A DNA stretch of 64,000 nucleotides from Nitrospira sp. (GTDB lineage Bacteria; Nitrospirota; Nitrospiria; Nitrospirales; Nitrospiraceae): assembly GCA_005116835.1 (NCBI GenBank), contig SWDM01000024.1, forward strand, positions 1 through 64,000. The letters are read 5' to 3'. Below the pieces are notes generated by a model. That model was not told the origin of the DNA, did not search any database, and worked only from the letters and a program-made list of their open reading frames with translations. The position numbers and the translations under genes are program-made. Every line of letters begins with the position of its first letter. Positions within the stretch are counted from its first letter, which is position 1. Shown piece by piece: positions 22,665 to 49,485 of the stretch.

Positions 22665-22739
22665 GTGTCTTGCTCAGGGGTTCAGGAATTCAGGCTGAAG
22701 GTCAAAATTGTAGTACATACACACGGGAAAATATACTCA

Positions 22740-22815
22740 TCGGGAAGTTCTGAGTCACTGGGAAGTTCTGAGTTCTAAGTTTTGAGTTCTGAGTTAGTTC
22801 CGGACAACTCAGAAC
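22740..22815. repeat. GTTCTGA heptamer block
   Basis: GTTCTGA units followed by the facing AACTCAGAAC arm across the gap between kinase and regulator genes. The block overlaps the last 18 or so codons of the kinase. Confidence 0.8.
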
Positions 22816-31215: not shown

Positions 31216-31317
31216 TTACCGTTCGTCGTCGATGAAGTCATGAACGACCATCCAGATGACTCCCACCATCATAGTCAGGAGTCCCACAACGGCTACCTCA
31301 ACGAGAATCTGTACCAT
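31216..31317 (-). CDS. 33-residue single-TM protein, copy 1
   Basis: Small gene from ATG 31317 with AAAGGAGA 7-14 nt upstream. The product is almost all membrane helix (VEVAVVGLLTMMVGVIWMVV) with an acidic tail (HDFIDDER). The G-x-I-W-M motif and acidic end are shared with the two neighbouring small proteins, and the leader AAAGGAGACGCAGCC is identical to that of copy 2. A sigma-54 promoter lies about 40 nt upstream. Small membrane proteins of this kind often tune a transporter or a membrane stress system; the actual partner is unknown. Confidence 0.75.
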   Translation of the reverse strand: MVQILVEVAVVGLLTMMVGVIWMVVHDFIDDER

Positions 31318-31368
31318 GGCTGCGTCTCCTTTCACCATTCGATTGGTCGCCGCTTCGACCATAATCCA

Positions 31369-31382
31369 GCAATACGCATGCC
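31369..31382 (-). promoter_or_regulatory. sigma-54 promoter of small gene 1
   Basis: On the minus strand the sequence is GGCATGCGTATTGC, i.e. GG-N10-GC with TTGC at -12. The predicted transcript start (about 31357) is about 40 nt before ATG 31317. Confidence 0.75.
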
Positions 31383-31478
31383 TAATTAGAACGGCGTAAT
31401 CCCTACTGCTAGAAGCCTGATTTTTCAAGAATTGGCTTGAGCACAAGCTATTACAGGAGAATGGAATTTAGCCCATGT

Positions 31479-31515
31479 GAATCGAAAACGATTCGGGCTG
31501 AATCAGATTTGGCTA
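31479..31515 (-). promoter_or_regulatory. enhancer site 1: GAATC-N6-GATTC plus degenerate second copy
   Basis: GAATCGAAAACGATTC (31479-31494), then a half-conserved copy starting GAATC at 31500. The centre of the first copy is about 130 bp upstream of the predicted sigma-54 start, and the copies are 21 bp apart. Confidence 0.75.
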
Positions 31516-31745
31516 GGAAGTAGGAAGTAGTAAGTGGGAAGTAGGAGAAGTAGGAAGTAGGAGAAGTGGGAAGTGCTGAGTGCTGAGTTGGAAGACGGGG
31601 AGCGAAGAGTTCTGAGTTTTGAGTTCTGGGTTGGAAAACGGGAGAGAATGCGGAATGAGAAATGTAGAATGAATTGGCCGGAAACGCTGAAAGAGGCGTC
31701 ACGTTTTCGACCGACTCACCACTTACTACTTCCCACTTCCCAGCA
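31508..31745. repeat. GGAAGTA heptamer block
   Basis: Tandem GGAAGTA units, then GTTCTGA and GAATG units, and a facing CTTCCCA arm at the right end. It separates the first and second small-gene cassettes. Confidence 0.8.
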
Positions 31746-31765
31746 CTCAGCGAAGAGGGTCATCA

Positions 31766-31855
31766 TCAATAGTGGTCGCTCGCGATCATCCAGATGGCCC
31801 CTAGCACTCCAATAGACAGCCACACCATCATGATCTGACCGATAAGTAGTGCCAT
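31766..31855 (-). CDS. 29-residue single-TM protein, copy 2
   Basis: Small gene, shorter than usual ORF cut-offs. ATG at 31855 follows AAAGGAGACGCAGCC exactly as in copy 1. The product is one hydrophobic helix (LLIGQIMMVWLSIGVLGAIW) ending MIASDHY. The GAIWM motif aligns with GVIWM of copy 1 and GLIWA of copy 3. The sigma-54 promoter and paired palindromes upstream repeat the arrangement of copy 1 at the same spacing. Confidence 0.75.
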   Translation of the reverse strand: MALLIGQIMMVWLSIGVLGAIWMIASDHY

Positions 31856-31938
31856 GGCTGCGTCTCCTTTCAGAGAAAACCGCCGGAGTTATGGAGGCCG
31901 ATTCCATCTTGACCTCAGCCTGCTCACTGCGATAACCA

Positions 31939-31952
31939 GCAAACCGCATGCC
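31939..31952 (-). promoter_or_regulatory. sigma-54 promoter of small gene 2
   Basis: On the minus strand the sequence is GGCATGCGGTTTGC, GG-N10-GC. The predicted start (about 31927) gives a leader of about 70 nt before ATG 31855. Confidence 0.75.
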
Positions 31953-32049
31953 TACGGTGGAATACTCATGGCATCTGGACCAGTCGCTGATTTTCCTGAG
32001 AATTTTATCCACTGACCTCTGCGACTGGAGAATGGAAAGCGGTTCATGT

Positions 32050-32087
32050 GAATCCAAAACGATTCAGAGCTGAATCCTTTTGGATTG
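32050..32087 (-). promoter_or_regulatory. enhancer site 2: paired GAATC-N6-GATTC palindromes
   Basis: GAATCCAAAACGATTC (32050-32065) and GAATCCTTTTGGATTG (32072-32087), centres 22 bp apart. The first centre lies about 130 bp upstream of the predicted sigma-54 start. Confidence 0.8.
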
Positions 32088-32104
32088 CTGGGCGGACGGC
32101 GTGG

Positions 32105-32262
32105 TGTAAGTGGGAAGTAGGAAGTAGGAAGTAGGAAGGCGGGGAGAGGGAGGTTCTGAGTTCTGAGTGCTGGGTTTTGAGTTGGAAGACGGGAGAGAAT
32201 GAGAAATGTGGAATGAGAAATGTGAAATGAGGGGTGAGTTGGCTGGAAACGATGAATGAGAA
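32105..32262. repeat. GGAAGTA/GTTCTGA/GAATGAG heptamer block
   Basis: Runs of ggaagtaggaagtagg, gttctgagttctgag and gaatgagaaatgtg between the second enhancer site and small gene 3. Confidence 0.8.
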
Positions 32263-32268
32263 ACACTC

Positions 32269-32451
32269 TTACCGGTAGTCGTCGGGGTAATGGTCTTCAA
32301 CATAGATGTTGAGCACCATTGCCCAGATGAGCCCCAGCAGCCCGATAAGCAATACCCACACAATGATCAAGGGAATCCCTATATGCCACTGACAGATTTC
32401 AAGGCCTACCAGCCCAGCAAGCAATACCGACATAACGATCCCCAGTGTCAT
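32269..32451 (-). CDS. 60-residue two-TM protein, copy 3
   Basis: ATG at 32451 preceded by AAGGGAGAAACTGCC. Two hydrophobic segments (IVMSVLLAGLVGLEI and IPLIIVWVLLIGLLGLIW) and an acidic, Tyr-rich end (VEDHYPDDYR). The second segment and tail align with copies 1 and 2 (GLIWA...), so this is a longer relative. It has the same sigma-54 promoter and enhancer arrangement upstream. Function unknown; the three genes look like a co-regulated small membrane-protein family. Confidence 0.8.
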   Translation of the reverse strand: MTLGIVMSVLLAGLVGLEICQWHIGIPLIIVWVLLIGLLGLIWAMVLNIYVEDHYPDDYR

Positions 32452-32550
32452 GGCAGTTTCTCCCTTCACCCTGTCTGGTTCACCTGCTTGCGCTGGTTCA
32501 ACCAAACCAACCCAATAACATTCTCCCTACGCCCGCTATATCGATAGCCA

Positions 32551-32564
32551 GCAAATCATGTGCC
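32551..32564 (-). promoter_or_regulatory. sigma-54 promoter of small gene 3
   Basis: On the minus strand the sequence is GGCACATGATTTGC, matching the GGCAC and TTGC elements with N10 spacing. The predicted start is about 32539. Confidence 0.8.
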
Positions 32565-32662
32565 TAATCTGAAATACGTATGGTCCTTCTCATGGTCTGT
32601 GATTTGTTGAGGAATTTCATCACCGCGAAAGCCATTGCATAAGGATGGAAGACGGTCCATGT

Positions 32663-32926: not shown

Positions 32927-33682
32927 CTACCTGACTGGGGCTGGGATGGAACGAAGATCCCATTGCGCGACAGTGGAAAGACCGATTTGATTCAGCAAGG
33001 AAGCTCGTTGTCTTCGAAGCGCTTGGTCTGCAGGGTTCGAATCGATCAACTGGCAGAGACAAGCCATGGCGTCGTACCAGAAGCCGCGCATGGCATTCCG
33101 CAGCACGCTTTGCCTGTCACAGCTCAAATCGACTTCCATTTCTACGAGGCATGCGCTGAATTCACAGCGCTCGATCACCCCGCCGGCCACAAGATCCTGT
33201 GACGGCGAGTCGGGATTGCGAATTGCGGAGATGTACCAGCGATATTGCACGTCCGGCTCCAAGGCAAGGTTCCAATCATTGAGATCAATGGATTGGACTC
33301 CGGCATGATCCGGCGTGGGAATCGGGCCTTCATGCAGCGGTTTGACCGATCGGATGTCGATGAGCGTAAATTTCAGCGGGTATGTCGTCGGTTTTGAGAG
33401 AAACCAGTTTAGGACCGGAGATTTCTTGGCGGTGAGCCCGACATGGTCCGGCACCAAGGCCACGAGCACGGGATCGCTTCCGTCTGTCCCGCGCAATCCA
33501 CCACCCACGCGAGCTCGCGGGGTCAGCTTCTTGGGGGGCTGGTAGAGGGGAAGCGGCGCATCTTCCTTCGGTCCAGACTGGGAAGCGGTGGGCTGATCCG
33601 ATACCGCCGGCGTCGTAGCCGGATCGAGCAACCCTATGCACAGAATCAGTCCTAGGAATAGAGAAACAGTAGGGCGTTGCAT
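32927..33682 (-). CDS. exported DUF928-family protein
   Basis: 251 residues from ATG 33682, which has GAAAGGTG 7 nt upstream (ATG 33703 is the alternative). A signal peptide (VSLFLGLILCIGLLDPATT) is followed by the DUF928 pattern: YQPPKK, RVGGGLRGT, VLVALVPDHVGLT and SPVLNWFLSK, then an all-beta domain. The family is common in cyanobacteria near CHAT and haemagglutinin genes; its function is unknown. Here it is the last gene of a minus-strand locus with CHAT, TpsB, TpsA and a subtilisin, which supports a shared role at the cell surface. Confidence 0.85.
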   Translation of the reverse strand: MQRPTVSLFLGLILCIGLLDPATTPAVSDQPTASQSGPKEDAPLPLYQPPKKLTPRARVGGGLRGTDGSDPVLVALVPDHVGLTAKKSPVLNWFLSKPTTYPLKFTLIDIRSVKPLHEGPIPTPDHAGVQSIDLNDWNLALEPDVQYRWYISAIRNPDSPSQDLVAGGVIERCEFSACLVEMEVDLSCDRQSVLRNAMRGFWYDAMACLCQLIDSNPADQALRRQRASLLNQIGLSTVAQWDLRSIPAPVR

Positions 33683-33842
33683 CGGTAGCACCTTTCTAGT
33701 CATGACTCTTCATGAAAACGTTTGCCGCATTCACCGAGGTTTAGGCGAGAGGCAACGGCACTCATGAATAATCCTGGCGATACCGGCCATCGACCAGCGT
33801 GAATATAAATGGCGGCATACTCTAGCATAGGCCAGCGACATG

Positions 33843-36203
33843 TTACAGCCAGTTGTTCAGCAACAGAAACGCCGACCAGTAGGCCGGATGTTCATAGACA
33901 CGATCCGCCAAGAGTTTCTGCTGCGCAGACTGCAATGCTTGTGCCTTCGACAGTTTGGGATTTCGTAATTGCCGGTAGAATTCAGAGACCAAAGCCGCGG
34001 AGGCTTCATCGTTGATGAACCAGAGTGTAGCTAACGCGCTTCGCGCACCAGACTTGATGGCGACGCCGGCAAGACCCAAGGCCGCGCGATCATCTCCCAC
34101 TCCCGTTTGACAGGCGCTCAAGGTGAGGAGTTCGAGCGGATCCTCGCGAAACCGGAACAGGCCGATCAATCGATCCAGGGTGCTCATGGTCAGCTTCTCA
34201 TCGAACGTGAGGAGAAACGAGTCGTTTGCGCTAGTCGAGAACATCCCATGCGTGGCGATGTGCAAGATCCCATACCGTCCATCCCGTAACTCCTCTTCTA
34301 ACCGTTGGGCGCGAAAGTCCTGGTTCATCAGTTGATTCGACGAATAGAGCGAGCGAATGGTCTCGACTTCGTCCGCCACGTAGGGGAGGGAAGGAAATCC
34401 CTGCACGGCTTTCGTGAGCCCGGTGGTCAGAACGCGCACCTTCTCCCGGTTCAACGGGCGCGGGTCCGTCAGCGTAAGGCCGGGGGTCAGCGCGACGGCA
34501 TACTTGTTGATGAGAAAGGTCGAGCCGTCGTGAAGCGCCGCCATAGGGATGGTCCGGAGCGCGCTGTCAGGCACAAATACCAAGGTTGCAATCCGTTGCT
34601 TTGCAAATTCAGATTCCAGAGGACGGATGAGCCAGTCGTACAGCTGTTGCGCATGGGGGAGGTATTCGCGCGTGGTGCGTTTTTCGACCGTGCGGCGAAA
34701 CAACCGGATCTCCTTCGTCAGCGCCTCCGCGCCGACCGGCACCGCGATGCGCATCATGCCTGAGGGCAGGCTCACCAGTAGTTCAAGCCGTGTCGGAAAG
34801 AGAATGGGATAGATGACGGCCGTGTTTGCCACCAGGCTGTCGAACTTGATAAGCCGGGCTTGCAGCGCATCGACGCATTCGTCTTTGAAGTAGTCTCGCA
34901 GCTCGGCGGCCTTATAGGCTTCGATCGCGTCGCGGGCGGCCAAGAGGTATTGCGTGGCTGCAGGCTGCTCTTCAGTCAGCGAGGCTCGTTGGAGGAGTAG
35001 ATCTGCCAGTTCGAAAAACAACGGTCGTATCGGATCCTCATCCAGCCAGGAAGAATGTGCAGCGGTCATGGCAATCGACGGGCGAATGGGTTGCAGGGTG
35101 CCGCTTGCCTGACGGTAGGACGCGATCGCGTCGTCGAGTTTCCCCGTGGCAGCCAACTGCCTTCCGAGTTGCCATTGCCAGCGGTACAACGATTCCGGCG
35201 CATCGACCGATTGGGCGGAAAAGATTGCGCGCCTCGTGAATGACAGAGCTTCATCCAACCGCTGCTCCGACTCATACAAATGGCCGAGATGACCGAGGGC
35301 GAACGAGAGGGTACGAGTATCACCGAGCTGCTCGGCCAGGCTTGCCGATTCCTGCATCGCTCCAGCCGCGCGAAGGACGAGCGGGGCATGGAGGTCGGGG
35401 AGGGAGGAGAGCAGGCGACGATAGAGCAGACCGATATTCATCAGTCCGATGGCTTTCTCCCGAGAAGGCGGCAAGACATCGACTTGTTCAAGGGCTTGGT
35501 CTATCCACATGCGACTGGCCATCGGGCGATTAAGCTGTATATTTGTTCGCGCCGCATTCAACCGCGCATGCAGCGCGACAAGGGGGAGTCCTGCCTGCTG
35601 CGCGAGCTGGATAGTATCGGTAAAGGCGGCGAGGGCTTCATCGTGGTGGTTTTGGAGGGCATGGAGAATGCCGAGATCGTTCAAGAGCGTCGCGGTAAGA
35701 GCTGGGGACACAGAGCGGTTGGCGAGCTCACGGGCCTGCGTCAAATGTGTCGAGGCCGCATCCAGTTGTCGCGCCGTCAGATAGGTATGGCCCAGTTGCG
35801 CCAAGACCGTGGCTCGCCACAGAGCATCCGGTTCCTTCTGCGCAAGGGTCGAGGCGAGTTCGAGCAATTGGAGTGCTTGTCTGGTCTGGCCGAGCGATTC
35901 AGCCGCTCGCGCTGCGGCGACAAGGGCCTGGCTCTGTTGATGGACCTGGCCCTGTGCGTCGTACTGCCGCGCGGCCTCCTTCCATTTTCCCAGCGCGTCT
36001 TCGTACGAGCCACGCTGAAACGCCTGCGTGCCTTGTGCCATCGTTTCATCAGCGACGGAAGGTGGGGCGGAGGCTGAAGTCGCCATGGAGGGGATCAGGA
36101 CGGCCGCGCAGAGCAACAGGCAGGCGAGGTGGATAGGCTGAAGGGGTTCAGGCTGAAGGCTGAAGGCTAAAGGCCGAAATTTGAGGACCAACGTTCTAAG
36201 CAT
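33843..36203 (-). CDS. exported TPR-CHAT protein (caspase-like)
   Basis: 786 residues. A hydrophobic leader (LACLLLCAAVLIPSMATSA) suggests export; the first residues (FRPLAFSLQPEPLQP) are translation of a GGCTGAA repeat. Residues about 55-420 are tetratricopeptide-like repeats. The C-terminal CHAT domain (about 500-786) has the caspase-type dyad His (ILHIATHGMF) and Cys (LLTLSACQTGVGDDRA) and ends with the typical HPAYWSAFLLLNNW. CHAT proteases cleave specific partners in other systems. The neighbouring TpsA adhesin, DUF928 protein and subtilisin are obvious candidate partners, but no substrate is shown. Confidence 0.93.
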   Translation of the reverse strand: MLRTLVLKFRPLAFSLQPEPLQPIHLACLLLCAAVLIPSMATSASAPPSVADETMAQGTQAFQRGSYEDALGKWKEAARQYDAQGQVHQQSQALVAAARAAESLGQTRQALQLLELASTLAQKEPDALWRATVLAQLGHTYLTARQLDAASTHLTQARELANRSVSPALTATLLNDLGILHALQNHHDEALAAFTDTIQLAQQAGLPLVALHARLNAARTNIQLNRPMASRMWIDQALEQVDVLPPSREKAIGLMNIGLLYRRLLSSLPDLHAPLVLRAAGAMQESASLAEQLGDTRTLSFALGHLGHLYESEQRLDEALSFTRRAIFSAQSVDAPESLYRWQWQLGRQLAATGKLDDAIASYRQASGTLQPIRPSIAMTAAHSSWLDEDPIRPLFFELADLLLQRASLTEEQPAATQYLLAARDAIEAYKAAELRDYFKDECVDALQARLIKFDSLVANTAVIYPILFPTRLELLVSLPSGMMRIAVPVGAEALTKEIRLFRRTVEKRTTREYLPHAQQLYDWLIRPLESEFAKQRIATLVFVPDSALRTIPMAALHDGSTFLINKYAVALTPGLTLTDPRPLNREKVRVLTTGLTKAVQGFPSLPYVADEVETIRSLYSSNQLMNQDFRAQRLEEELRDGRYGILHIATHGMFSTSANDSFLLTFDEKLTMSTLDRLIGLFRFREDPLELLTLSACQTGVGDDRAALGLAGVAIKSGARSALATLWFINDEASAALVSEFYRQLRNPKLSKAQALQSAQQKLLADRVYEHPAYWSAFLLLNNWL

Positions 36204-36262
36204 TTCAGCCTCTTTCCCCCTGAACCCCTTAACCCCTGAATGCCTTCAGCCTATTTGCCTGC
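36130..36262. repeat. GGCTGAA heptamer block between CHAT and TpsB genes
   Basis: GGCTGAA units at 36135-36175 lie inside the first codons of the CHAT gene, with the facing TTCAGCC arm at 36205-36255. The repeat therefore shapes the N-terminus of the CHAT protein. Confidence 0.75.
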
Positions 36263-36268
36263 GCTGCG

Positions 36269-38002
36269 CTACAGAACCTGCACCACCAACTGCAAATGTA
36301 TCCCGTGGTCTTGCAAATTGCCTGGTGGGTGGAGGACATGATTTAACGGCAGCCCCCAGTAGAGTTCAAAATGCGCCCGATCGCGCGGCAGAATATGCCA
36401 ACGGAGGCCCAGCCCGACGCTGGCCAAGGTCTGAGGATCGGGCGTGATGCCCTTTGCATTCCATGCTCGTCCAAGATCCACAAATTGGGCAAACTGCAAG
36501 AGTGGTTCCCCTGTGACGTAACTCATCAAAGGAAATCGCGATTCAACCGAGGCCAGGAATGCGTTGTCACGGATGAGCGAACTCTCGCGATAGCCGCGGA
36601 CACTGAACCGTCCCCCGACAGGAACCTGCTCAAGTGGAAAGAGTCGATCGTTGGCGAGTTGAAGGCTCATTTGCCCCAGGAGCTGCATGCCCCACCAGTC
36701 GTCAAACCGCCGGACCGCCTGGACTTGCCCCAACCAGGAGAAGAACTGTCCGTCCGGCAACGGGCCGGCGTTGTTGGTGGCGCTCAGGACGTCCAGTCCG
36801 ACGGAAAAGCGGGACCGCGCCGCGATCACCGTGGTCGATGTGCGATGGGTGTACTCCTGCACGAAGCGCAGTGCGCTCACGTTGCTGACCCCGGTGCCGG
36901 ACGAGCCGGGAATGAAGAGTGACGGAACACCTGGCAGGTCGAACACCGATGTCACTTTGCTGTACAAATGTTCGCCGGTGAGCGCGATGGCAAACTCATC
37001 AGACACTGTCCGATAGATCGGCTGGCGAAGGGTGAAGCCGATGATTTCCGACTCCCCATTCAAATTGAGGAAACGAAAGGGGTTCTCCACCACGAGGAAG
37101 TCGTTTCGCCGGTAGGAGGCGATGAAGGTCGTGTCGTATCGATTCAAGGGGAGTGAATAGGAGGTAGAGATGATCGGATTGACACCCCGAGACTGGCCAT
37201 AGCTGAAGCTGAACGCATCACCATTGCCGGTCACATTCTGATGGGCGATCGTGGCGAGTCCCCGCTCAGCGCCGACCACGGGTGTCTGATAGTTGTTGAA
37301 GTCCAACCAGGCTTTCCAGGGACTAGCCTCTTTCACCTTGACCTGCATGATGCTCTCGCCGCGTCTGTCGCCCGGGCGCAGCTCGGCGTTGATCTGTTCG
37401 ATGCGCGGATCTTGCCGGAGCAACTGCAACCGTTCTTGCAGCGGTTCCAACCGCAGTGGCTGCTGTGCGCCCCGTTCGATCCGATCGCGCAAGTAATCGG
37501 CACGGAACCAGCCCTGTCCCTCCACGTCGATTTTAGTCAAGGCGCCTTCGACGATCTGAATGGTGATGACGCCTGCCATCACGTCCTGATCGGGAATGAT
37601 TGCGCCTGAAGAGATGTAGCCCCTATTCACATACAGGAGGGTCAGTGCGAGACGAAGCCGTTCGAGATCTTCGGCCGTGATGATCCGGTTCGTGTAGGGA
37701 GCGGTGACCTCGGCTAGTTCTGCATCGGTGAAGACCGTACTGCCGGTCACATGAATAGATTTGGCGAAGACCTGGATCTGGCCCAGCGGTTTCTTGCCTT
37801 CTCCCTCCGGCGGTACTGGGACCACGGGAAGGGTAGGGAGGGGCACAGGGGGCGGGGGCTTGAATTCTTTTTTGAGCGGAGCAGGCGGCTCTCCTGATCG
37901 CCCGGTCGGGTCGAAGCTCGGAGGCAGAGCCTGCTGTGCGTAGACGGAAGTTCCTGACAACAGGGTCAGCATGGCGCCCCCAAACAGCGTGAACCATCGC
38001 AC
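36269..38002 (-). CDS. TpsB-type outer-membrane transporter (ShlB/FhaC family)
   Basis: 577 residues if started at GTG 38002 (MRWFTLFGGAMLTLLSGTSVYA signal); the frame continues upstream into repeat sequence and so the start is uncertain. A Pro-rich segment leads to two POTRA domains (about 70-220, IHVTGSTVFTDAELAEVTAP, YVNRGYISSGAIIPDQ). A 16-strand barrel follows, with the signature GGRFSVRGYRES of the L6 loop. TpsB proteins recognise the TPS domain of a partner and pass it across the outer membrane. The partner TpsA is encoded 115 bp upstream on the same strand. Confidence 0.94.
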   Translation of the reverse strand: MRWFTLFGGAMLTLLSGTSVYAQQALPPSFDPTGRSGEPPAPLKKEFKPPPPVPLPTLPVVPVPPEGEGKKPLGQIQVFAKSIHVTGSTVFTDAELAEVTAPYTNRIITAEDLERLRLALTLLYVNRGYISSGAIIPDQDVMAGVITIQIVEGALTKIDVEGQGWFRADYLRDRIERGAQQPLRLEPLQERLQLLRQDPRIEQINAELRPGDRRGESIMQVKVKEASPWKAWLDFNNYQTPVVGAERGLATIAHQNVTGNGDAFSFSYGQSRGVNPIISTSYSLPLNRYDTTFIASYRRNDFLVVENPFRFLNLNGESEIIGFTLRQPIYRTVSDEFAIALTGEHLYSKVTSVFDLPGVPSLFIPGSSGTGVSNVSALRFVQEYTHRTSTTVIAARSRFSVGLDVLSATNNAGPLPDGQFFSWLGQVQAVRRFDDWWGMQLLGQMSLQLANDRLFPLEQVPVGGRFSVRGYRESSLIRDNAFLASVESRFPLMSYVTGEPLLQFAQFVDLGRAWNAKGITPDPQTLASVGLGLRWHILPRDRAHFELYWGLPLNHVLHPPGNLQDHGIHLQLVVQVL

Positions 38003-38117
38003 TCCAAAGAATCGTGAAATGTGAAATGTGAAACGTGAAACGCAGGACTGACTAGTGTTCTTCCTCCGAAGCCTTTCACCTTTCACGTCTCACATCTCAC
38101 GAATCGCTGGGGGGCTT

Positions 38118-41100
38118 TTATGAGTGGCACTCGGTTGCCTCACTATCGGCAAAGTTCGCCATTAAGAACCGGGCTGGGGTCAATCGACGGAGCGACAGGA
38201 TCTGTGTATCAGCCTCTCGCCCCTCACGCCTCATCCCTAACCCTTCACCGGTGCCCAGCCTCTCACCTTCAGCCTTTACCCCTTCAGCCTTAACCTCTAG
38301 CCCCGTGCCTGCGGCATAGAGCGGGCTCGTCAGCCAGCCTCCTGGATCGGCCGGCAATTGCTCACGTCCGGCGACGACGAAACTACTGGCTTGCCCGTTG
38401 ACCAAGGCTGCGCAACGCTGCGTCACGAGGCTCTGGGCCTGATTGGTCTTCGAGGCCAAGGGGCCCAGGCTTCCGCTCAAATTGGAGGTGGGACTCTGGA
38501 TCGTCACCGTGCCGTTCAAGCCGAACCGTGACGAAGCGCTCACGAGGCTGCTGGAATCGGCCAAGAAGAGGGGAGTCGTGATCGTGATATTTCCCCCGGT
38601 GCCCTGGATCGCCTGGGCTAGGATCTGGCTGTTGTTCTGAAGGACCACGAGATTCGGGTCAATGTTGATGTCCCCACCACCGCCCGTTCCGTCAAGCACC
38701 GAGGTGCTGATCGTGCTGTTATCCAACCGGACCAGGTCCACCGCGCGGATGTCAATCTTTCCGCCGCTCGCCTGGTTGGCCTGCGTGGTGATCGAGCTGT
38801 TCTGCAGGATGAGTTGGTCCCCGGCGTTGATCGAGATATCGCCCGCGTTGCCGGGTCCGGTGCTGCTGGCGGAAATCGTTGCATCGTTTGTCAGGGTAAC
38901 AGATTGACCGGCAGTAACGTTGATGTTGCCGCCATTCCCGGAACCGGCCGTGGTGCTACGTAGCGCCGTCCCGGTTCCAGACAGAGTGGCCTGATTCCCC
39001 GCGTTCAATGTCACGGCACCACCATTCCCGCTGGCCGCACCGACGCTGCTGCTTTCCATGGTTGAACCGCCGGAGAGCACAATTGAATCCGTGGCGTTTG
39101 CAACGATGGATCCCGCGTTCCCACTACTGAACAGAGTGTTTGTCAAAACGCGACTCCCATTGGAGAGAGAGAGAGATCCGGCGGTCGCATTCAGGCTAAT
39201 TGAGCCGCCATCAAGCTCGACGTTAGTACGGCTCGATAGCAACCCCTGGTCGAGCGCGATGTTGGAGGCGCGCAGGTTGATCGCGGGCCGATTTGCGGTC
39301 CCTCCGAACGCTCGAACAACGCCGTTCGTGGATACGGTGATAGACTCTGTTGCTTCGAGGGTAACTCTTCCGGCTCCCGTGCCGGTGCTCGAACTGAACA
39401 CTTCAGCACCGTTTGTCACGAGAATCTCTCTGGCCTGGATCACGATGTCGCCCTGACCTCCCGATCCCTCCTGTATATTTGCGACAACGACAGGAACCCC
39501 AGGATCGAACGGTTCAGAGATCGTGATTGTCTCGGTGGCGTTCAGGGTAATGGTACCGGTTGAACCAGACTGACTGCTTCCCGTACTGATGGCTCCACGA
39601 CGAATGGTGAAGTTTTCTCCGATGATGATGATATCTCCAGCGACAGTCGAAGTACTCGTGGTAGTTCCGATGGACCCGCCATCTTCTACCAGGAGGGTTC
39701 GTGCATAGATATCGAGCTCTCCACTGCCGCCTCCGTCGAGCAGACCAGAAGCAGAAGACGATATTGCGGCGCCAACCCCGAAGATCTCATCAATCCCTGA
39801 GACCGAGAGCAGATTCGAAGCCTCGACCGTGATGCGTCCCGCTGCACCAGTCCCTTGCGAGAATGTAACCAGGAATGCGGAGTTCTCGATAGCCACATTG
39901 GGTGCTATAACGCTAAGATCGCCACTCTTTCCACTGCCGACAGTATCGCTAAAAATTCTACTCTCAGTGAATACATCAAGGCTGCCCCCCGTCAGGTGGA
40001 TAGACTCTGTGGCGGTAACGCTTATATCGCCTCCTTGGCCGGAACCTCTGGCTTCCAGGGTGATGGGATCTATTTCTCCGCTCAGGCTGTGGATTAGCCC
40101 GCCGTTCGTAAGTGCCACGTTGTTACCGGTCACGGATAAATCTCCTCCTCGTCCTGATCCCGTGGCGGCACTAACGAGTGAGCCGCCTCCATCCAGAGAA
40201 ACCATTGGTGCGTCAATAGTCGCACTACCGCCTGCCCCGCTCGATGAGGTGGTGGTGAATACACCGCTGGTCACAAATCCATCTTGGTTGGGTATTCCAA
40301 CCAGGGTAAACGTGCTATCGAACCCTGAAATGGTCACCGACTCCGTGCCGTTGATGGTGATAGCACCGCCAGCCCCAGTACCATTCGCAATGCTGGCGAC
40401 CTGACCACCATTGAGGAACGCAACAGTTTGGCCGGTGATTGAGACGTCGCCGCCTAGACCTTCGCCGGTTGAGGTGCTCCTGACAGAGGCTCCATATATT
40501 TGGATACTTCCTGCGGCGACCTGGACATCGGCGCCACGCTCAATACCAGAAGTCGCGGTGACGATCGCGCTACCTGCGCTGAGAGCGACAGTGTCCGGCG
40601 CTCCAACGCTCTCCGCAGTGGTGAGCACCGTGTCGTTCACGCTCAAGACGAATTGGCCTCCGCGAATCGAGATGGTGTTAGCTCCGCTGACATCTATAGT
40701 GGAATCGGGCGCGAGATGGGCGGAGCCGTAGGAGGTGAAGGATTCACCGTTGATGTTCGGCACCGATTGCAGGCCAGTCACAAGAAATTCTCCGGGAGAG
40801 GCTGTGACGGCTAGATTGATCTCGCCATTGGGTGAGGATAATTTCCCTCCGGTAACGGTAACCCCATCTGATACCGAGGCTGGATCGCCTGTGTCTGGAT
40901 CAGTATAAGTAAAGCTCCGATTGCCCCCGACGAGCGACAGACCTGTCCCGTTTGCCACGGTAAGTTGACTGCCTTGCACCGAGATGGCGGCTGGATTTGA
41001 GCCTAAAAATCCGTAGGCATCCACCGAGGCAGTGCTGAGCAGTGCGACTTGTGTCCCAGGCAGTGCCTCGAAGCGGACTCCGTCGCTGAGCCGTAGGTAG

Positions 41101-41573
41101 TCTGCTGTGGTGAAGTTCACAGAGCCACCAACGTTAAGGACGGCGTTCGGACCGAAGACAATCCCGTTGGGATTCATGAGAAAGAGGTTGGCACCGGGAT
41201 AGTCGCGGATGCTATCGATGATACCGAAGATGCTGGAAGGGTTCTGGCCGGTGACGCGACCGAGAATGTTGCCAATCGTGGCGTCGGGACTGCCCGTGGT
41301 TGTTTGAAACCGAGCGGTTTCCGACGCAGTGAGGCTAAAATCGCCGAAGCTGTGAAAGAGGTTCGAGCCAGCTGGGGTACCATGCGTGATTTCATAGACG
41401 TTCCCGACCTGGTTCACCTGCGTACCGAGACTTCCGGGACCGATTGTCTGGGTGACTTGGGCGAGAACACTGCCAGTGCTAATCTGGAGCAAGAGACCGA
41501 GACAGACGATGACCGGGGCGGCAAGGGAGTATGCGAGACGGGAATGACTTAGTAGCATGTGCCGTCTTGTCAT
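38118..41573 (-). CDS. TpsA-type filamentous haemagglutinin-like adhesin
   Basis: 1151 residues from ATG 41573 (GGGAGG 9 nt upstream). The signal peptide (YSLAAPVIVCLGLLLQISTG) is followed by the TPS secretion domain (about 40-290) with NLFHSFGDFSL, the NPNGI(V) motif in LFLMNPNGIVFG, and VNFTTADYLRLS. A long right-handed beta helix of Gly-, Ser-, Thr- and Asn-rich repeats then runs to about residue 1090. The last 60 residues contain LEVKAEGVKAEGERLGTG, a repeat-derived insertion, ahead of the original-looking end. It is exported by the TpsB next door. A C12 tract lies upstream (41690-41701). Confidence 0.94.
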   Translation of the reverse strand: MTRRHMLLSHSRLAYSLAAPVIVCLGLLLQISTGSVLAQVTQTIGPGSLGTQVNQVGNVYEITHGTPAGSNLFHSFGDFSLTASETARFQTTTGSPDATIGNILGRVTGQNPSSIFGIIDSIRDYPGANLFLMNPNGIVFGPNAVLNVGGSVNFTTADYLRLSDGVRFEALPGTQVALLSTASVDAYGFLGSNPAAISVQGSQLTVANGTGLSLVGGNRSFTYTDPDTGDPASVSDGVTVTGGKLSSPNGEINLAVTASPGEFLVTGLQSVPNINGESFTSYGSAHLAPDSTIDVSGANTISIRGGQFVLSVNDTVLTTAESVGAPDTVALSAGSAIVTATSGIERGADVQVAAGSIQIYGASVRSTSTGEGLGGDVSITGQTVAFLNGGQVASIANGTGAGGAITINGTESVTISGFDSTFTLVGIPNQDGFVTSGVFTTTSSSGAGGSATIDAPMVSLDGGGSLVSAATGSGRGGDLSVTGNNVALTNGGLIHSLSGEIDPITLEARGSGQGGDISVTATESIHLTGGSLDVFTESRIFSDTVGSGKSGDLSVIAPNVAIENSAFLVTFSQGTGAAGRITVEASNLLSVSGIDEIFGVGAAISSSASGLLDGGGSGELDIYARTLLVEDGGSIGTTTSTSTVAGDIIIIGENFTIRRGAISTGSSQSGSTGTITLNATETITISEPFDPGVPVVVANIQEGSGGQGDIVIQAREILVTNGAEVFSSSTGTGAGRVTLEATESITVSTNGVVRAFGGTANRPAINLRASNIALDQGLLSSRTNVELDGGSISLNATAGSLSLSNGSRVLTNTLFSSGNAGSIVANATDSIVLSGGSTMESSSVGAASGNGGAVTLNAGNQATLSGTGTALRSTTAGSGNGGNINVTAGQSVTLTNDATISASSTGPGNAGDISINAGDQLILQNSSITTQANQASGGKIDIRAVDLVRLDNSTISTSVLDGTGGGGDINIDPNLVVLQNNSQILAQAIQGTGGNITITTPLFLADSSSLVSASSRFGLNGTVTIQSPTSNLSGSLGPLASKTNQAQSLVTQRCAALVNGQASSFVVAGREQLPADPGGWLTSPLYAAGTGLEVKAEGVKAEGERLGTGEGLGMRREGREADTQILSLRRLTPARFLMANFADSEATECHS
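38213..38303. repeat. repeat block inside the tpsA 3' end
   Basis: Units such as TCACGCC, TCAGCCT and ACCCCTT (plus-strand sense) form a heptamer repeat that is translated in frame as EVKAEGVKAEGERLGTGEGL on the minus strand. Confidence 0.75.
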
Positions 41574-41689
41574 GATGAATCCTCCCGGCTGTCTGGTCTT
41601 GAGGGTCCGATTGTGTTCTCCACGAGATTTGAAACGCAATGGCTGTCCCCTAAGGATTGAATTCTTCGTTCGCCACTCCGCTCATCAGA

Positions 41690-41701
41690 CCCCCCCCCCC
41701 C
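41690..41701 (-). promoter_or_regulatory. C12/G12 homopolymer tract upstream of tpsA
   Basis: Twelve consecutive C on the plus strand (G12 on the coding strand of tpsA) about 117 bp upstream of the adhesin ATG. In other bacteria, tracts like this in adhesin promoters vary in length by slipped-strand mispairing. No coding sequence spans it. Confidence 0.6.
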
Positions 41702-41843
41702 AGAATTGGCGTGGAACACTTTTGCGGCACGCTCCTACACTATCTGTTACGCACCTCTCGCGTATTTTCTGAGAGCGTAGCAGACACAAAGTTATTGCTC
41801 TACCGCAGCATGTGCAATGGCCAGCTGACCCGCGCACATTGAA

Positions 41844-42803
41844 TTAATTCTTTTGCTGCTTTGTATCGTCCTCTTGTTTCTTGTCACCATCATGTTGTTT
41901 CTTGTCATCACCATCATGCGAGAAGAGATCTCGTGGCGCACGGTGTTTCCCTGGACACATCCGACAACAGGGGATGCAGCCGGAGCCACCACCTGAGCCG
42001 TCCTCGCCGACGACGCTGGGGTCATTGGCGATGGTCTGTCCATAGGCGTCGCCGCCTCCGCCTTGGCCAGTTGGCTCCTGCAACTTGATGTATTGCAGTT
42101 TGAGCTGGTGGTCCGCTGCCTTGAATCCGAACCAGAATTGGCCCTTGAGCTCTCGCTCGTGTGAAAGACTTATGGGCAGGAAGACGAGACTTTGAGTGAA
42201 TAGGGGCAACGGAGTGCCCGCGTCGACAAACGTAAAGGAAGCGCTCGATGCTGTCTTGGCTTGAGCAGAACCTATTGGATTCTCAACCCCTACGTCGGCG
42301 TCCTCCACCCACCCATGCACGCGAAAGGTGGAGAGAGTTGCCCCTGTTCCGTTAGTCTTTACAAGAGAACCGTTGGCTTTTCTATAATACGTGACCGATG
42401 TGCTGCCGGTTGCTGAAGGCCCCGCAGTTAAGATTTTAGAGAAGACGATGTTTGCACAGTTAACGTAGTTTGAGTTCGAAGCGTTGCAAGTTGCCGGCTG
42501 GGTTCCCAGTGGGACAATAAGCGCGTTTTCTATTCTGAGTTCTTCATCGCCGGTGTTATCGATTGCCCTTACCTTGGCTGGTTGGCCATTCAGCCCCCTA
42601 ATAGTAAAAGTAGTATAGTTTCGTCCGGCTCCCGTTCCACTACACTCGCTGAGGATGAACTGAAGCTCGGTGTCGCTGCCGCAGGTTTCGGCAATTGCGC
42701 TTCCATCAACGATGACGCTGATCGCAGCGGTAGAGGTTGAGGGTGAAACAAGCAGCGTCACCATCGCGCAGAAAACAAGCAAGGCTAGAATCGGTGCTTT
42801 CAT
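41844..42803 (-). CDS. exported protein of unknown function with Cys cluster
   Basis: 319 residues with an AAGGAAAAG ribosome-binding site and a signal peptide (ILALLVFCAMVTLLVSPSTS). The mature part is Ser/Thr- and Asn-rich beta-type sequence (FTIRGLNGQPAKVRAIDN, GSTSVTYYRKANG) with scattered Cys. A compact CIPCCRMCPG cluster and a strongly charged Lys/Asp/Gln tail (DGDDKKQHDGDKKQEDD) close it. I do not recognise a family. It starts 30 bp after the stop of the subtilisin gene, so the two are co-transcribed; it might be the protease's inhibitor, substrate or chaperone. Confidence 0.8.
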   Translation of the reverse strand: MKAPILALLVFCAMVTLLVSPSTSTAAISVIVDGSAIAETCGSDTELQFILSECSGTGAGRNYTTFTIRGLNGQPAKVRAIDNTGDEELRIENALIVPLGTQPATCNASNSNYVNCANIVFSKILTAGPSATGSTSVTYYRKANGSLVKTNGTGATLSTFRVHGWVEDADVGVENPIGSAQAKTASSASFTFVDAGTPLPLFTQSLVFLPISLSHERELKGQFWFGFKAADHQLKLQYIKLQEPTGQGGGGDAYGQTIANDPSVVGEDGSGGGSGCIPCCRMCPGKHRAPRDLFSHDGDDKKQHDGDKKQEDDTKQQKN

Positions 42804-42833
42804 AACTTTTCCTTTCTGGTTAGAGGTTTGTCA

Positions 42834-44696
42834 TCATCCCCGTACGGTACCCTTTTTCGTTCCACGCCTTGGCCCGGGGGGAATCTTGGGCGGTCGAGGG
42901 GAACGCTCAAGAAGCTTGAGATCGCTGATAGAAGGATAAATAGGAAGAAGGATGGCTTTCACAACCTGGCAGGCTCGTTTCATAGCCTTGAACACATTGA
43001 TGCGGCCATAGCCGATTTCCCGGCTCCATGATCCATTTGGATGAGCAGCAGTGGTAGTGTAGGTCAGGGGAGTTCCCATTTGCTGTAAGGGATAATTGGG
43101 GTCGTTCACTGTCAATGTTCCTACCTTGTCAGCACTACCTTCGATGATTTCACGTACTAGAACAGGCTGGCCCTTGAGTATCGGGTGTCTACTCATTATC
43201 AAGGCGGCCAGTGCCGCTACCTGTGGAGTCGCCGCCGATGTGCCCTCAAACGCAGAAATGTAGCCGCTGCCTATATCGCAGGTGGGAATGTTGATACCTG
43301 GTGCTGCCACTGAAAGGGCGTCACCGTAGTTTGAGCCATTGCCAGTGTTAGAACTCCAAACACCTCCTGTGCAGCGATTTTCATGGTATGAATCATCAGT
43401 GGCGCCACAGGCAATGACATAGTCCTTATACGCGGCGGGATAACCAACATGGTCGGAATTACCATTGCCGGCTGCTGCACAGATGACGGTTTTAGCTGAG
43501 GATGCACCTTGGAGTGCTATCAAAACGCTAGGGTCATAATATAAAGGGTCAACGTTGCTGTAACTGATGACGTTGCATCCTTTACTTACCGCATACGTGA
43601 TAGCAGCTTGGAGCTCGAAAGTGCTATTTCCATCGAGTCTTAGAGGAAGTATCTCACAGGCGCCAGCAAGTCCTGTTATACCTATGTAGTTATTATTTAT
43701 ATTCTTGTTGTTGCATCGTGCCCCCAAGACGCCGGCGCACCGGGTACCGTGGTCAGCCCCTTGAGCACGGCCTCCATCTAAAGGATTAGTTCCAGTTCCT
43801 ATTGGTCCTATTTGCGGATTTGGAGTTCTGTGAGGATTAGATGGGTAAAAAGTGGCTGCGTTGGTCTTATCAAAAGCGGATGAGAGATCTTCATGGTCGA
43901 GATCGCAACCGTCATCGATAATGGCAACTCGAACCATGGCCCCAGCGGGAAAGGGGGCAGTGGAGGTGGTCCCCTCCTGCACCCAGCCGGCTTTCGCCCA
44001 GCCGGCTTCCGCCTGAATCTTTAACAGGTTCCATTGCTGCCCAAACTGAGGATCGCTCGTCGGGCTTGCAGTTGGTACGAACATGGGCATGAAATTGAGA
44101 TACGTTGCCGCAACCAGATATTTATACCGTTTATCACGAAGATTTATCTGAAGATCATGGGCAGCCGTAGGCGGAAGAACCTGATGATTGGAAGAAGGGA
44201 CGAGGTAATAAAGCCGGAGTCCGTTGAGGTATTGCGAGATATCTGCCTGGTAGCGTAGACCCAACGTAATCAGTGCGTGATCCAGGTCTCCGGTAATAGC
44301 TTCGGTCTTCGGCTTGACGATCAGCACAGATGGTAGGGCACAGACCGGGTGTCCGTTAGGGATTGCCTTGGTCGCGGGAAACCGCAAAACAGGTCCGACC
44401 CATTCCAACTCATTTGCTAGCTTTAGTCTAAGGCTTGCCAAGTGTTTGTCCAAGATGGACTTCCCATCCTTCGAATGAACCCAATAAAGGCGGTTGGTAT
44501 GGTTCACCTTCCGCTTGAACTGATGGCCGTTCTGCTCTTGTGTATGAACAGGCTCCTCGAGCCTCACGGAAGTCTGATCAAGTAAATGCTGCACTTTAGC
44601 GGACGCGATCGGTTTCCTGAAACCAAGGAGAAGTAATGTGTCGTCTAACTTTAATTTGGTGCCAGAGTTATGAGGGATGGCGAGTGGGAATATCAT
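42834..44696 (-). CDS. subtilisin-family serine protease (S8)
   Basis: 620 residues. The catalytic triad is complete: Asp in VAIIDDGCDLDHEDL, His in GADHGTRCAGVLGA and Ser in FEGTSAATPQVAALAAL, with the oxyanion Asn in AAAGNGNSDHV. A long N-terminal extension (about 1-230) looks like a pro-region. No signal peptide is visible at this start, so export would have to be by another route or the start may be misplaced. The C-terminus is Pro/Arg/Lys-rich. The ribosome-binding site is weak. It heads the minus-strand run that ends with the DUF928 gene. Confidence 0.92.
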   Translation of the reverse strand: MIFPLAIPHNSGTKLKLDDTLLLLGFRKPIASAKVQHLLDQTSVRLEEPVHTQEQNGHQFKRKVNHTNRLYWVHSKDGKSILDKHLASLRLKLANELEWVGPVLRFPATKAIPNGHPVCALPSVLIVKPKTEAITGDLDHALITLGLRYQADISQYLNGLRLYYLVPSSNHQVLPPTAAHDLQINLRDKRYKYLVAATYLNFMPMFVPTASPTSDPQFGQQWNLLKIQAEAGWAKAGWVQEGTTSTAPFPAGAMVRVAIIDDGCDLDHEDLSSAFDKTNAATFYPSNPHRTPNPQIGPIGTGTNPLDGGRAQGADHGTRCAGVLGARCNNKNINNNYIGITGLAGACEILPLRLDGNSTFELQAAITYAVSKGCNVISYSNVDPLYYDPSVLIALQGASSAKTVICAAAGNGNSDHVGYPAAYKDYVIACGATDDSYHENRCTGGVWSSNTGNGSNYGDALSVAAPGINIPTCDIGSGYISAFEGTSAATPQVAALAALIMSRHPILKGQPVLVREIIEGSADKVGTLTVNDPNYPLQQMGTPLTYTTTAAHPNGSWSREIGYGRINVFKAMKRACQVVKAILLPIYPSISDLKLLERSPRPPKIPPGPRRGTKKGTVRG

Positions 44697-45364: not shown

Positions 45365-45378
45365 GCAATTGATGTGCC
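45365..45378 (-). promoter_or_regulatory. sigma-54 promoter 4 (target unclear)
   Basis: On the minus strand GGCACATCAATTGC, a near-consensus GG-N10-GC promoter. The predicted start is about 45353. The first likely gene downstream is the subtilisin at 44696, about 650 bp away, with a repeat block and the MITE-like element in between. Confidence 0.75.
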
Positions 45379-45495
45379 AGCGGATTCTGTGGCCTGCTTC
45401 GAGAGAGTTTTCGTGATTGCGTTCAATATTGGCAGGTTTTCACGAGGTCAAAGGGAAAGATGCAGGCACAGCACATCATCAGCACGATCTCAGCT

Positions 45496-45682: not shown

Positions 45683-46072
45683 ATGAAACAATGGACCATT
45701 ATTTACCGGCCGCACTACAGCGCCTGGTTTGGGAAATGCGGCGAGGAATTACAGGACGAAATTCTCGCTCATCTGGAGGTGCTGAAGACAGTGGGACCAA
45801 ACCTGGGGAGGCCTCGGGTTGACCACATTAAGGGCTCGGCGCACCAGAATATGAAGGAGCTGCGAGTCCAGTTCAAAGGCGATCCGGTGCGCATACTATT
45901 TGCCTTCGATCCCGATCGCCGGGCAGTCCTGCTCCTCGGTGGCGCTAAAACAGGGGATGACCGGTGGTATCGCAGGAATGTTCTCCTTGCAGACCAGGAG
46001 TTCAGCTTGCATTTGCAGGAGCTTCAAACGCAAAAGAAAAAAATAAGGAGAAGAAACGATGACAACACATAA
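45683..46072 (+). CDS. RelE/HigB-like toxin
   Basis: 129 residues. The Gp49/HigB-like pattern is clear: YRPHYSAWFGKCGEELQDEI, VLKTVGPNLGRPRVDHIKGS, MKELRVQFKGDPVRILFAFD and AVLLLGGAKTG. These are ribosome-dependent mRNA ribonucleases. The toxin gene comes first, as in higBA, and overlaps the antitoxin by 14 nt. The Lys/Arg-rich C-terminus (KKKIRRRND) is typical. Confidence 0.93.
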   Translation: MKQWTIIYRPHYSAWFGKCGEELQDEILAHLEVLKTVGPNLGRPRVDHIKGSAHQNMKELRVQFKGDPVRILFAFDPDRRAVLLLGGAKTGDDRWYRRNVLLADQEFSLHLQELQTQKKKIRRRNDDNT

Positions 46073-46385
46073 GGAGTTTATGGCTTCCCTGCCCAAGAAG
46101 CGCCGTACGGCCATTCAAGCGCGCGCGGCGGAAATTCTTGCCGAGGAAATGACCCTTCAGGAACTGCGCAAAGCGCGCGACCGCTCCCAGGAGACCACAG
46201 CCGAAGCCCTTGGCCTCAAGCAGGCTGCCGTGTCCCGTCTTGAAAACCGTGACGACATGCGAATCTCCACGCTCCGTGACTACGTGCAAGCTCTCGGCGG
46301 GGAGCTTGAGTTCTATGCCCGTTTTAAGGAGCACGGCGCGAAGGCCCGCCTTGTCCGAATCAGGCAAAAGAACAATGCAGCATGA
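46059..46385 (+). CDS. XRE-family HigA-like antitoxin
   Basis: 108 residues. The helix-turn-helix is seen in LRKARDRSQETTAEALGLKQ followed by AAVSRLENRDDMRISTLRDY, with an N-terminal helical part. It should neutralise the toxin and repress the promoter at 45611-45638. Confidence 0.93.
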   Translation: MTTHKEFMASLPKKRRTAIQARAAEILAEEMTLQELRKARDRSQETTAEALGLKQAAVSRLENRDDMRISTLRDYVQALGGELEFYARFKEHGAKARLVRIRQKNNAA

Positions 46386-47131: not shown

Positions 47132-47476
47132 TTATCGGGCCAGCGCGGCTTCACGCATTGGGCCGGTCTTGATCCCCACCGCAGCGACGAGATCCATCAC
47201 AAAGATTCTTCCGTCCCCAACGCCGTCGGTCTTCGCGTAGCGTGTAATGGTGTCGATCACCTTCTGCACCAGGCTATCCGAAACGACGACTTCGATCTTT
47301 ACCTTGGGCACAAAGATGGAGGTAAACGCGTTGCCGTTGTACCGTTCTTGGCTCCCCTTCTGGTGTCCGAATCCTTTGACTTCCGAGACCGTCATCCCTT
47401 CCACGCCGATTCCCAACAATGCCGTCGTGACGTCATCCAACTTGAACGGCTGCATGATGGCTTCAATGATCTTCAT
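47132..47476 (-). CDS. PII nitrogen-regulatory protein without the uridylylation Tyr
   Basis: 114 residues. PII signals carbon/nitrogen status by binding ATP/ADP and 2-oxoglutarate and then gripping enzymes, transporters or regulators. The family core is clear (MKIIEAIMQPFKLDDV, EVKGFGHQKG, PKVKIEVVV, TDGVGDGRIFVMDL). In the T-loop the residue that is Tyr51 in E. coli GlnB is Phe (GNAFTSIF), so GlnD-type uridylylation at that site is not possible. A run of nine G lies 8 nt before the ATG and takes the place of the ribosome-binding site. No amtB or glnA is adjacent. Confidence 0.93.
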   Translation of the reverse strand: MKIIEAIMQPFKLDDVTTALLGIGVEGMTVSEVKGFGHQKGSQERYNGNAFTSIFVPKVKIEVVVSDSLVQKVIDTITRYAKTDGVGDGRIFVMDLVAAVGIKTGPMREAALAR

Positions 47477-47582: not shown

Positions 47583-47634
47583 TTCACGTAACCAAATCAA
47601 CTAAATAAACCAAACAAACAAGACTAACCAAACT
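47583..47634. repeat. AACCAAATA-type 9-bp repeat (single arm)
   Basis: Units AACCAAATC, AACTAAATA, AACCAAACA and so on run to the stop codon of the SUMF1 gene. Confidence 0.8.
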
Positions 47635-48848
47635 TACGGCGTCTTCGCACAGCGGAACCCGGTGCCGAAGCCCCGGAACGACGGCACATGGGTCTCTCGT
47701 TCCGCGGAGCGCAGGCCATCCGCATTACTGCCCCACGAGCCGCCACGAACCACTTTGGTCCAGCCCGTTGACGGCCCAGTCGGGTTCTGCCGCGGGCTGC
47801 TTTTGTAATAGTCTTGGTCATACCAGTCGTTGATCCATTCCCAGACATTGCCGGCCATGTCATAGATGCCATAGGGACTCTTGCCCCCTTCCAACATCCC
47901 CACTGCCGTGACTACCGTATGGCTGCTCCAGACATCTTTCCCCGAAGTCGCGTGTAACTGTGTTGGAGGCTCATTCCCCCAGGGATAGATCCGGCCATCC
48001 GTCCCCCGCGCGGCCTTTTCCCACTCCGCCTCGGCTGGTAGGCGCTTCCCGGCCCATTTGCAGTAGGCATCCGCATCCGCCCAATCCACATTGGCAACTG
48101 GGCGATTCTGGTGCTGGGGTCGGTTCATGAGGCTCCAGTCCGGTGGTGCGTCGTGATGCGTGTCTTCCAAGAACCTCGCATATTGCGCCACCGACAGTTG
48201 ATGCAAATCTATGAAAAAGGCGTCCACATAGACTTTGTGCATCGGTTGTTCGTCTGCATCTCCCATCGAACTCCCCATCGTGAACTCCCCCGCCGGCACC
48301 AGTGCCATCGACCAATTTTGATGCTGGGCGGACACAGTCTTCGCGTAATTCTGCGTGTATCGCTGCTGAAGTTTCTCTTGCAACTGTTGGTAGAGGGCCC
48401 GTTGTTCATCGTCGAGCCCCAACTTGTTCGCAATGTCCAGGGTGTCCTTGGCCTGGGCGCCCTCCTTAGATGAGGCGTTCGGCTTGGTGATGGCCTGCTT
48501 CCCTTCGTTCAACAAGCGCCAGATCTTGGCCTTGCGCCCCCGTTGTTTAGCCAAACCGGCTACCGAGGATTTGGCACCAAGCTCCAGCGATGTCTCATAA
48601 TGCGCTTCGGCGCAGACCCAAGCCTTCAAGCTCCAGCAGGTCTCGCCGAGATAGAAGTGCGCCATGGCATTCGCAGGGTGTCGTTGAACGCTGGCTTCAA
48701 AGGCTGTGCGCGCCTCCTGATACTTCTGTTGTTTCAGAAGCTCGTACCCAGTGGTAAATTTCTTAGCGTCCTGATCACCTGGCGCCGCGGCCACCATCGA
48801 GTACGTATCGAGCCAGAGCCACGCAACGAAGAGAAGGATTATTCTCAT
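47634..48848 (-). CDS. exported TPR plus SUMF1/formylglycine-like domain protein
   Basis: 404 residues. Signal peptide (ILLFVAWLWLDTYSMVAA), TPR-like region (about 35-130, AFEASVQRHPANAMAHFYLG), then a SUMF1 domain (about 180-400): VPAGEFTMGSSMGD, VANVDWADADAYCKWAGKRL, PAEAEWEKAARG, GNVWEWINDW and VVRGGSW. Formylglycine-generating enzymes need two catalytic Cys near the C-terminus; here that stretch reads RSAERETHVPSFRGFGTGFR with none, so the domain is probably a structural or binding relative and not an enzyme. Confidence 0.88.
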   Translation of the reverse strand: MRIILLFVAWLWLDTYSMVAAAPGDQDAKKFTTGYELLKQQKYQEARTAFEASVQRHPANAMAHFYLGETCWSLKAWVCAEAHYETSLELGAKSSVAGLAKQRGRKAKIWRLLNEGKQAITKPNASSKEGAQAKDTLDIANKLGLDDEQRALYQQLQEKLQQRYTQNYAKTVSAQHQNWSMALVPAGEFTMGSSMGDADEQPMHKVYVDAFFIDLHQLSVAQYARFLEDTHHDAPPDWSLMNRPQHQNRPVANVDWADADAYCKWAGKRLPAEAEWEKAARGTDGRIYPWGNEPPTQLHATSGKDVWSSHTVVTAVGMLEGGKSPYGIYDMAGNVWEWINDWYDQDYYKSSPRQNPTGPSTGWTKVVRGGSWGSNADGLRSAERETHVPSFRGFGTGFRCAKTP

Positions 48849-49353: not shown

Positions 49354-49367
49354 GCAATCCATGTGCC
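49354..49367 (-). promoter_or_regulatory. sigma-54 promoter 5
   Basis: On the minus strand GGCACATGGATTGC, GG-N10-GC, near consensus. The predicted start is about 49342, leading into the region of the possible 59-codon gene and then the SUMF1 gene. Confidence 0.75.
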
Positions 49368-49485
49368 AGCGGCGGAATCTCTATCCGCCTGCGAGAAATT
49401 CTACGTAATTACTGCAGGGTCACTGATTTCTCGCAAATTTGACGAGCAATATGAAGGTGTAGACATGACTGGTCACATCTTCAGT

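Follow-up and report, generated by a model that had tools for sequence, protein, structure and literature searches.

We describe a locus from Nitrospira that is a new variant of two-partner secretion, with a constant core and a swappable protease and partner. The core comprises the C-terminus of the exoprotein TpsA, its transporter TpsB, a CHAT protease and a DUF928 protein, and what lies before TpsA is a hypervariable block, not a fixed subtilisin. This block, consisting of the protease, an exported protein termed CYS and the TpsA passenger, is swapped by recombination between the constant core and a conserved sigma-54 leader. Our preferred reading, to which we give a probability of about 0.45, is a polymorphic two-partner secretion locus under sigma-54 in which CHAT would release an adhesin anchored by a hook, with the protease and CYS as a variable payload. 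Among the major nitrifiers of soils and water treatment are Nitrospira, the complete ammonia oxidisers included, and to our knowledge their means of holding to surfaces and their dealings with phages, grazers and neighbours are poorly known. The locus is an RpoN-controlled candidate for variable surface display in this genus, gives the CHAT protease and DUF928 a testable role within two-partner secretion, and is a case of an exchangeable protease fold with position, promoter and partner kept.

A constant core across related loci

The window (the whole stretch of 64,000 nucleotides that was analysed) lies on contig 17 of a 3.94-Mb genome, and comparison by CHAT sequence puts Nitrospira MAGs closest to it among named relatives. 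An earlier sequence-only reading had placed six genes here, all on the minus strand, and verification of the open reading frames bore out their coordinates. Pfam likewise bore out the proposed identities of S8, TpsA, TpsB, TPR-CHAT and DUF928, and found no family for CYS, in keeping with the claim of an exported protein of no known family. In gene order, followed by the promoter-like site upstream, the features are:

42834..44696, minus strand: S8 subtilase, 620 aa, part of the exchangeable module (PF00082, 8e-33)
41844..42803, minus strand: CYS, 319 aa, exported and fast-evolving, with a Cys-rich C-terminal tail; partner of the protease in the exchangeable module
38118..41639, minus strand: TpsA exoprotein with TPS domain, variable passenger and conserved C-terminus (PF05860, 8e-35)
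36269..38086, minus strand: TpsB outer-membrane transporter with POTRA and FhaC/ShlB barrel (PF08479 (POTRA_2), 1e-18; PF03865 (ShlB), 2e-28)
33843..36203, minus strand: exported TPR-CHAT caspase-like protease, dyad H652 and C698 (PF12770, 5e-61)
32927..33703, minus strand: DUF928 protein (PF06051, 8e-32)
45365..45379, minus strand: sigma-54 (-24/-12) promoter-like site TGGCACATCAATTGC, a perfect match to TGGCAC-N5-TTGC

From the subtilase to DUF928, the genes are separated by 30, 204, 31, 65 and 139 bp. The TpsA frame is listed from a TTG, and an ATG at 41572 is the likelier start. Its N-terminal TPS domain and NPNG motif (LFLMNPNGIVFG in the TpsA frame), together with the TpsB gene directly downstream, identify a type Vb system.

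We compared about 100 related loci, drawn from the surroundings of DUF928 matches (DUF928 is present in 66 of 118 family genomes) and from 80 named loci obtained through the CHAT alignment. The order TpsA-TpsB-CHAT-DUF928 is kept by nearly every member of the family, among them N. moscoviensis (L124) and N. defluvii (L158), and the core occurs across Nitrospirota and in scattered other phyla, several of whose members are in the CHAT-derived set. The earlier reading had suggested surveying neighbourhoods for an order running from DUF928 to the subtilase; the DUF928-CHAT-TpsB-TpsA part is constant, and the S8 position proved exchangeable. The broader claim that the genes belong together has held up: the S8 subfamily and the CYS family occur at such a locus wherever the genome surroundings are readable, the sigma-54 site is conserved and, as far as sequence can tell, neither a lack of co-conservation nor unrelated control was found. 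A scan of 31-47 kb of the window against Rfam gave no family near or above the cut-off. In the literature we found no paper that brings DUF928 and CHAT together, the sole DUF928 paper found being about WD40 proteins, and none that brings together the CHAT domain and two-partner secretion.

A conserved sigma-54 leader

The sigma-54 site lies about 0.7 kb upstream of the subtilase gene, the first of the locus, and presents the -24/-12 GG/GC element of the sigma-54 regulon in sense orientation. One perfect site in 64 kb is not significant in itself; its significance comes from conservation across genomes. In a scan of both orientations over as much as 8 kb ahead of TpsA at 64 related loci, we found 22 perfect sites in sense versus 0 in antisense, and 26 versus 7 at one mismatch, so the sigma-54 site that had been noted upstream of the locus is real and conserved. 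It precedes the protease gene by about 0.5-1.2 kb in loci that have one, and about 70 bp on its 5' side are also similar in L040, L044 and L050. Sigma54_activat gives 20 strong matches in the genome, and one of these adjoins a histidine kinase at window positions 21273-25144.

Several features were also recorded elsewhere in the window. A second perfect sigma-54-like site, TGGCACATGGATTGC (49354-49368, minus strand), lies upstream of a gene at 47634-48848 and a P-II-like gene at 47132-47476; by reading, the former encodes a TPR and formylglycine-like protein, relatives of which are also near the locus in genomes G097 and G115. At 31250-32570 (minus strand) are three very small genes in tandem that encode single-span hydrophobic peptides, with starts near 32451, 31855 and 31317, each behind a sigma-54-like AGGCAY-N5-TTGC (at 32565, 31953 and 31383); two of the three have the start context AAAGGAGACGCAGCCATGG in common. 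Divergent from the locus, a HigB/RelE-like (Gp49) toxin and HTH antitoxin pair occupies 45683-46385 (plus strand).

Unrelated proteases at one position

The catalytic triad of the subtilase is intact (D261, H316 and S487, invariant in 8). Its subfamily is sharply delimited: nine of 175 family genomes score 499 bits or more, and the next score is 218. Eight of these nine genomes have it at a locus of this kind, and in the ninth it is truncated by a contig of only 4 kb. A Tat-like signal (SRRQFLK) is present in five of the nine S8 relatives, and the window's copy and three relatives (L041, L044 and L200) are without a recognisable signal peptide. Across loci, the same position is held by S8 enzymes, by M12/M43-like metzincins (HExGH), by C39/C70 papain-like enzymes or by no protease at all. 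The C39/C70 labels and some of the metzincin labels are based on sub-threshold Pfam scores and active-site motifs (WCW[AN], HExGH) rather than on curated matches. S8 or metzincin-like proteases are usually paired with a CYS-type protein, the metzincin-like enzyme preceding CYS in L042, L043, L095, L116, L064, L124 and L115. In a parallel series, another secreted protein comes after a C39/C70 papain-like enzyme, in many cases together with a small Cys-rich protein.

Strong matches to CYS are confined to this setting. A single-sequence search gave CYS in 4 of 118 genomes, always on the same strand as a DUF928 gene some 8-12 kb distant, and a profile found it in 17 of 175 family genomes; 15 of these matches were strong, and every one lies directly before TpsA of a TPS-CHAT locus with a protease ahead of it. 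In a sample of the phylum, none turned up outside the family. The C-terminal cysteine cluster, by which the earlier reading had described this protein, is not a general feature: CIPCCRMC is not conserved in the family and is absent in L041 and L044. In genome G082, the C-terminal part of the S8 protein weakly resembles CYS (E = 7.5e-6). The structure model of CYS is a low-confidence beta sandwich or jelly-roll (pLDDT 53), and a sequence search against the PDB gave a chance-level pilin match only. Carbohydrate binding is not claimed for CYS, as the model is weak and its carbohydrate-binding-module-like matches (Z up to 8.2) do not exceed what common arrangements give. At L185, a locus of the second type described below, a CYS relative carries SpaA domains and a neighbouring gene carries SpaA and C-type lectin domains, which would suit a binding role.

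Other genes were also observed in the module position, including an animal-type haem peroxidase (L067:2998-5940) and, in L047 and L088, a GMC oxidoreductase together with a cytochrome c-like protein. In some loci that lack a protease module, integrase or resolvase genes stand upstream of TpsA (L069:10812-12020; L084:6667-7500, an integrase fragment; L144:2554-4209), and these are possible agents of exchange. The mobile and redox genes would be expected if unrelated secreted-enzyme genes simply gathered by chance upstream of a mobile-prone TPS operon. We consider such ordinary neighbourhood highly improbable, given that the strong CYS matches all stand before TpsA behind a protease, that all eight S8-subfamily members on readable contigs are at this kind of locus, and that the sigma-54 leader is shared and conserved.

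Exchange of the protease-CYS-passenger block

We mapped module types onto a CHAT tree of 47 loci, which comprised 9 with S8, 7 with metzincin, 9 with papain-like enzymes, 2 with redox enzymes and 20 with no module, and which implied at least 18 module changes. The clearest case is the sister pair L043 and L045, in which TpsB, CHAT and DUF928 are 98%, 96% and 94% identical. The flanking DNA is also close, with 88% identity over the sigma-54 leader on one side and, on the other, 93% over the stretch that starts ~180 residues before the end of TpsA. Between these flanks, L043 has a metzincin and L045 an S8 enzyme, and CYS and TpsA are only 26% and 44% identical. Conversely, L045 and L040 have similar S8 (56% over 998) and CYS (74%) proteins despite distant TpsB (56%) and CHAT (63%), and the subtilase and CYS have moved as a pair between distant cores. 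With the exchangeable pair in front of conserved genes, even sister species can have entirely different versions.

Correlations among the 14 CYS loci follow the same pattern, although pairs are not independent and p-values are therefore only indicative: identity in TpsB was tracked by CHAT (rho = 0.69) but not by the protease (0.00) or CYS (-0.03), whereas protease identity tracked CYS identity (0.55). Sequence drift rather than swapping could be behind some of the low identities, but not behind the changes of fold.

A probable C-terminal anchor and a candidate release protease

The C-terminus of nearly all TpsAs carries a two-Cys hook with the motif AGR[DE]xLPxEPGGW; in the window, the hook encloses AGREQLPADPGGW. 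Exactly two cysteines are present in the last 150 residues of 87 of 90 TpsAs, in 61 of 90 exactly those two are the only ones after residue 70, and in 77 of 90 the last is the third residue from the end. The first starts the motif CAA...SSF-V-AGR[DE]xLPxEPGGWLxSP, and the spacing, taken from sequence rather than structure, is mostly ~75-120 residues. Physical linkage may account in part for the conservation of this C-terminus along with TpsB. The TPR-CHAT protein has the CHAT fold and the His/Cys dyad of clan CD, with H652 and C698 invariant in 20 homologues.

The closest parallel is CdrAB-LapG of Pseudomonas aeruginosa, in which CdrA has a cysteine hook and LapG cuts near the C-terminus, releasing the adhesin (PMC11898600, PMC5422565). 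Like CdrA, TpsA has C-terminal cysteines of the kind thought to form a hook, and we propose that an exported cysteine protease would likewise work near the C-terminus. Instead of a periplasmic LapG, the enzyme here would be the locus-encoded TPR-CHAT caspase-like protein; Pfam found no LapG or LapD among the six genes.

On the preferred reading, TpsA would be exported by TpsB and held by a loop at its C-terminus, which the two conserved cysteines could close. The exported TPR-CHAT protein would then cut or control the AGR[DE]xLPxEPGGW segment in the hook, releasing or resetting the adhesin as periplasmic LapG does CdrA, and DUF928 would be an Ig/TPR adaptor for CHAT. Co-occurrence and the conserved arginine suggest that CHAT most likely acts on this anchor to release the adhesin, and CHAT, which is always present, is more likely to be the TpsA protease than the upstream enzyme. 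The upstream protease and CYS would form an extracellular payload that works together with the variable passenger on competitors, matrix or environmental protein, by cutting or binding them, with no part in housekeeping maturation. Exposure to phages, grazers or rivals may be what makes the block variable. A subtilase without a recognisable signal fits poorly with an exported payload unless another route is used.

What the variable module may do

The sequence-only reading had proposed proteolytic maturation or release of the adhesin. A protease that varies in fold between orthologous loci, or is missing (20 of 47 loci retain TpsA, TpsB, CHAT and DUF928 without any enzyme module), while the TpsA C-terminus, TpsB and CHAT stay constant, is no general maturation factor; the idea of a dedicated subtilisin is thus not upheld, although S8 could still act on its own passenger. 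A narrower version supposes that the upstream protease matures or sheds one particular passenger and is swapped with it since each passenger needs its own cutter, with CYS presenting or restraining. Protease, CYS and passenger do fall within one exchanged block, protease identity weakly tracks TpsA identity (rho = 0.34), and there is a precedent in SphB1 (PMC5422565), a subtilisin-type protease that acts in this way on FHA of the Bordetella TPS system FHA/FhaC. SphB1, however, is an autotransporter encoded elsewhere, whereas the S8 here is in the locus, is exchanged for other folds and, with PF00082 its sole Pfam match, has no autotransporter domain; the window copy also has no recognisable signal peptide. 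Passenger and protease are also separable, as the window and L039 have TpsA passengers 70% identical and S8 enzymes 35% identical, with C-terminus, TpsB and CHAT not especially close. We consider this version unlikely.

The module could alternatively serve kin discrimination or antagonism, with the protease as effector, CYS as its cognate partner or inhibitor, and both displayed on or delivered along with the TpsA fibre. The module is hypervariable and horizontally exchanged, protease and CYS move together, and peptidases are common payloads of polymorphic toxins (PMC3482391), whose TPS forms, including CDI, have similar export and recombination-driven variability. In those systems the toxin end varies, whereas here the upstream and N-terminal parts vary and the C-terminus is the most conserved part of TpsA, the reverse of CdiA. 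Pfam matched no toxin family in the locus proteins, and we found neither a variable C-terminal toxin domain with an immunity gene nor any other toxin-immunity pair in the locus. The SpaA and lectin domains with CYS relatives in the other locus type are adhesin-like rather than inhibitor-like, and we regard antagonism of this sort as quite unlikely. A CDI-like reading of TpsA itself was dropped, its C-terminus being constant.

More tentatively than the preferred reading of payload and CHAT release, the locus might be a cassette-swapping surface weapon or identity system. A fixed TPS-CHAT-DUF928 chassis would provide export, hook anchoring and caspase-like release, and recombination would plug in modules of protease, partner and fibre whose fold would be irrelevant to the chassis. 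Such a system would resemble O-antigen or polymorphic-toxin loci, here built around proteases.

DUF928 and a second locus type

The DUF928 model (pLDDT 84) has an Ig/FN3-like domain and five TPR-like helices and is closest to the MtxA C-terminal domain (4z29; Z = 9.8 over 161 residues, next 6.6); by sequence, the PDB held no relative at E up to 1. A second type of TPS-CHAT locus (L168-L191, and L038 in the window's own genome) has a gene for CHASE2 and adenylate/guanylate cyclase beside CHAT and DUF928 on the other strand. In magnetotactic bacteria, a CHASE2-adenylate cyclase gene comes after mtxA (PMC4439547), and this common neighbour together with the fold suggests that MtxA and DUF928 are related, although MtxA is tied to magnetosomes and not to two-partner secretion. 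Elsewhere in the window's genome (G000 C16:189691-190503, L072), a 1,879-aa open frame also contains a CHAT domain.
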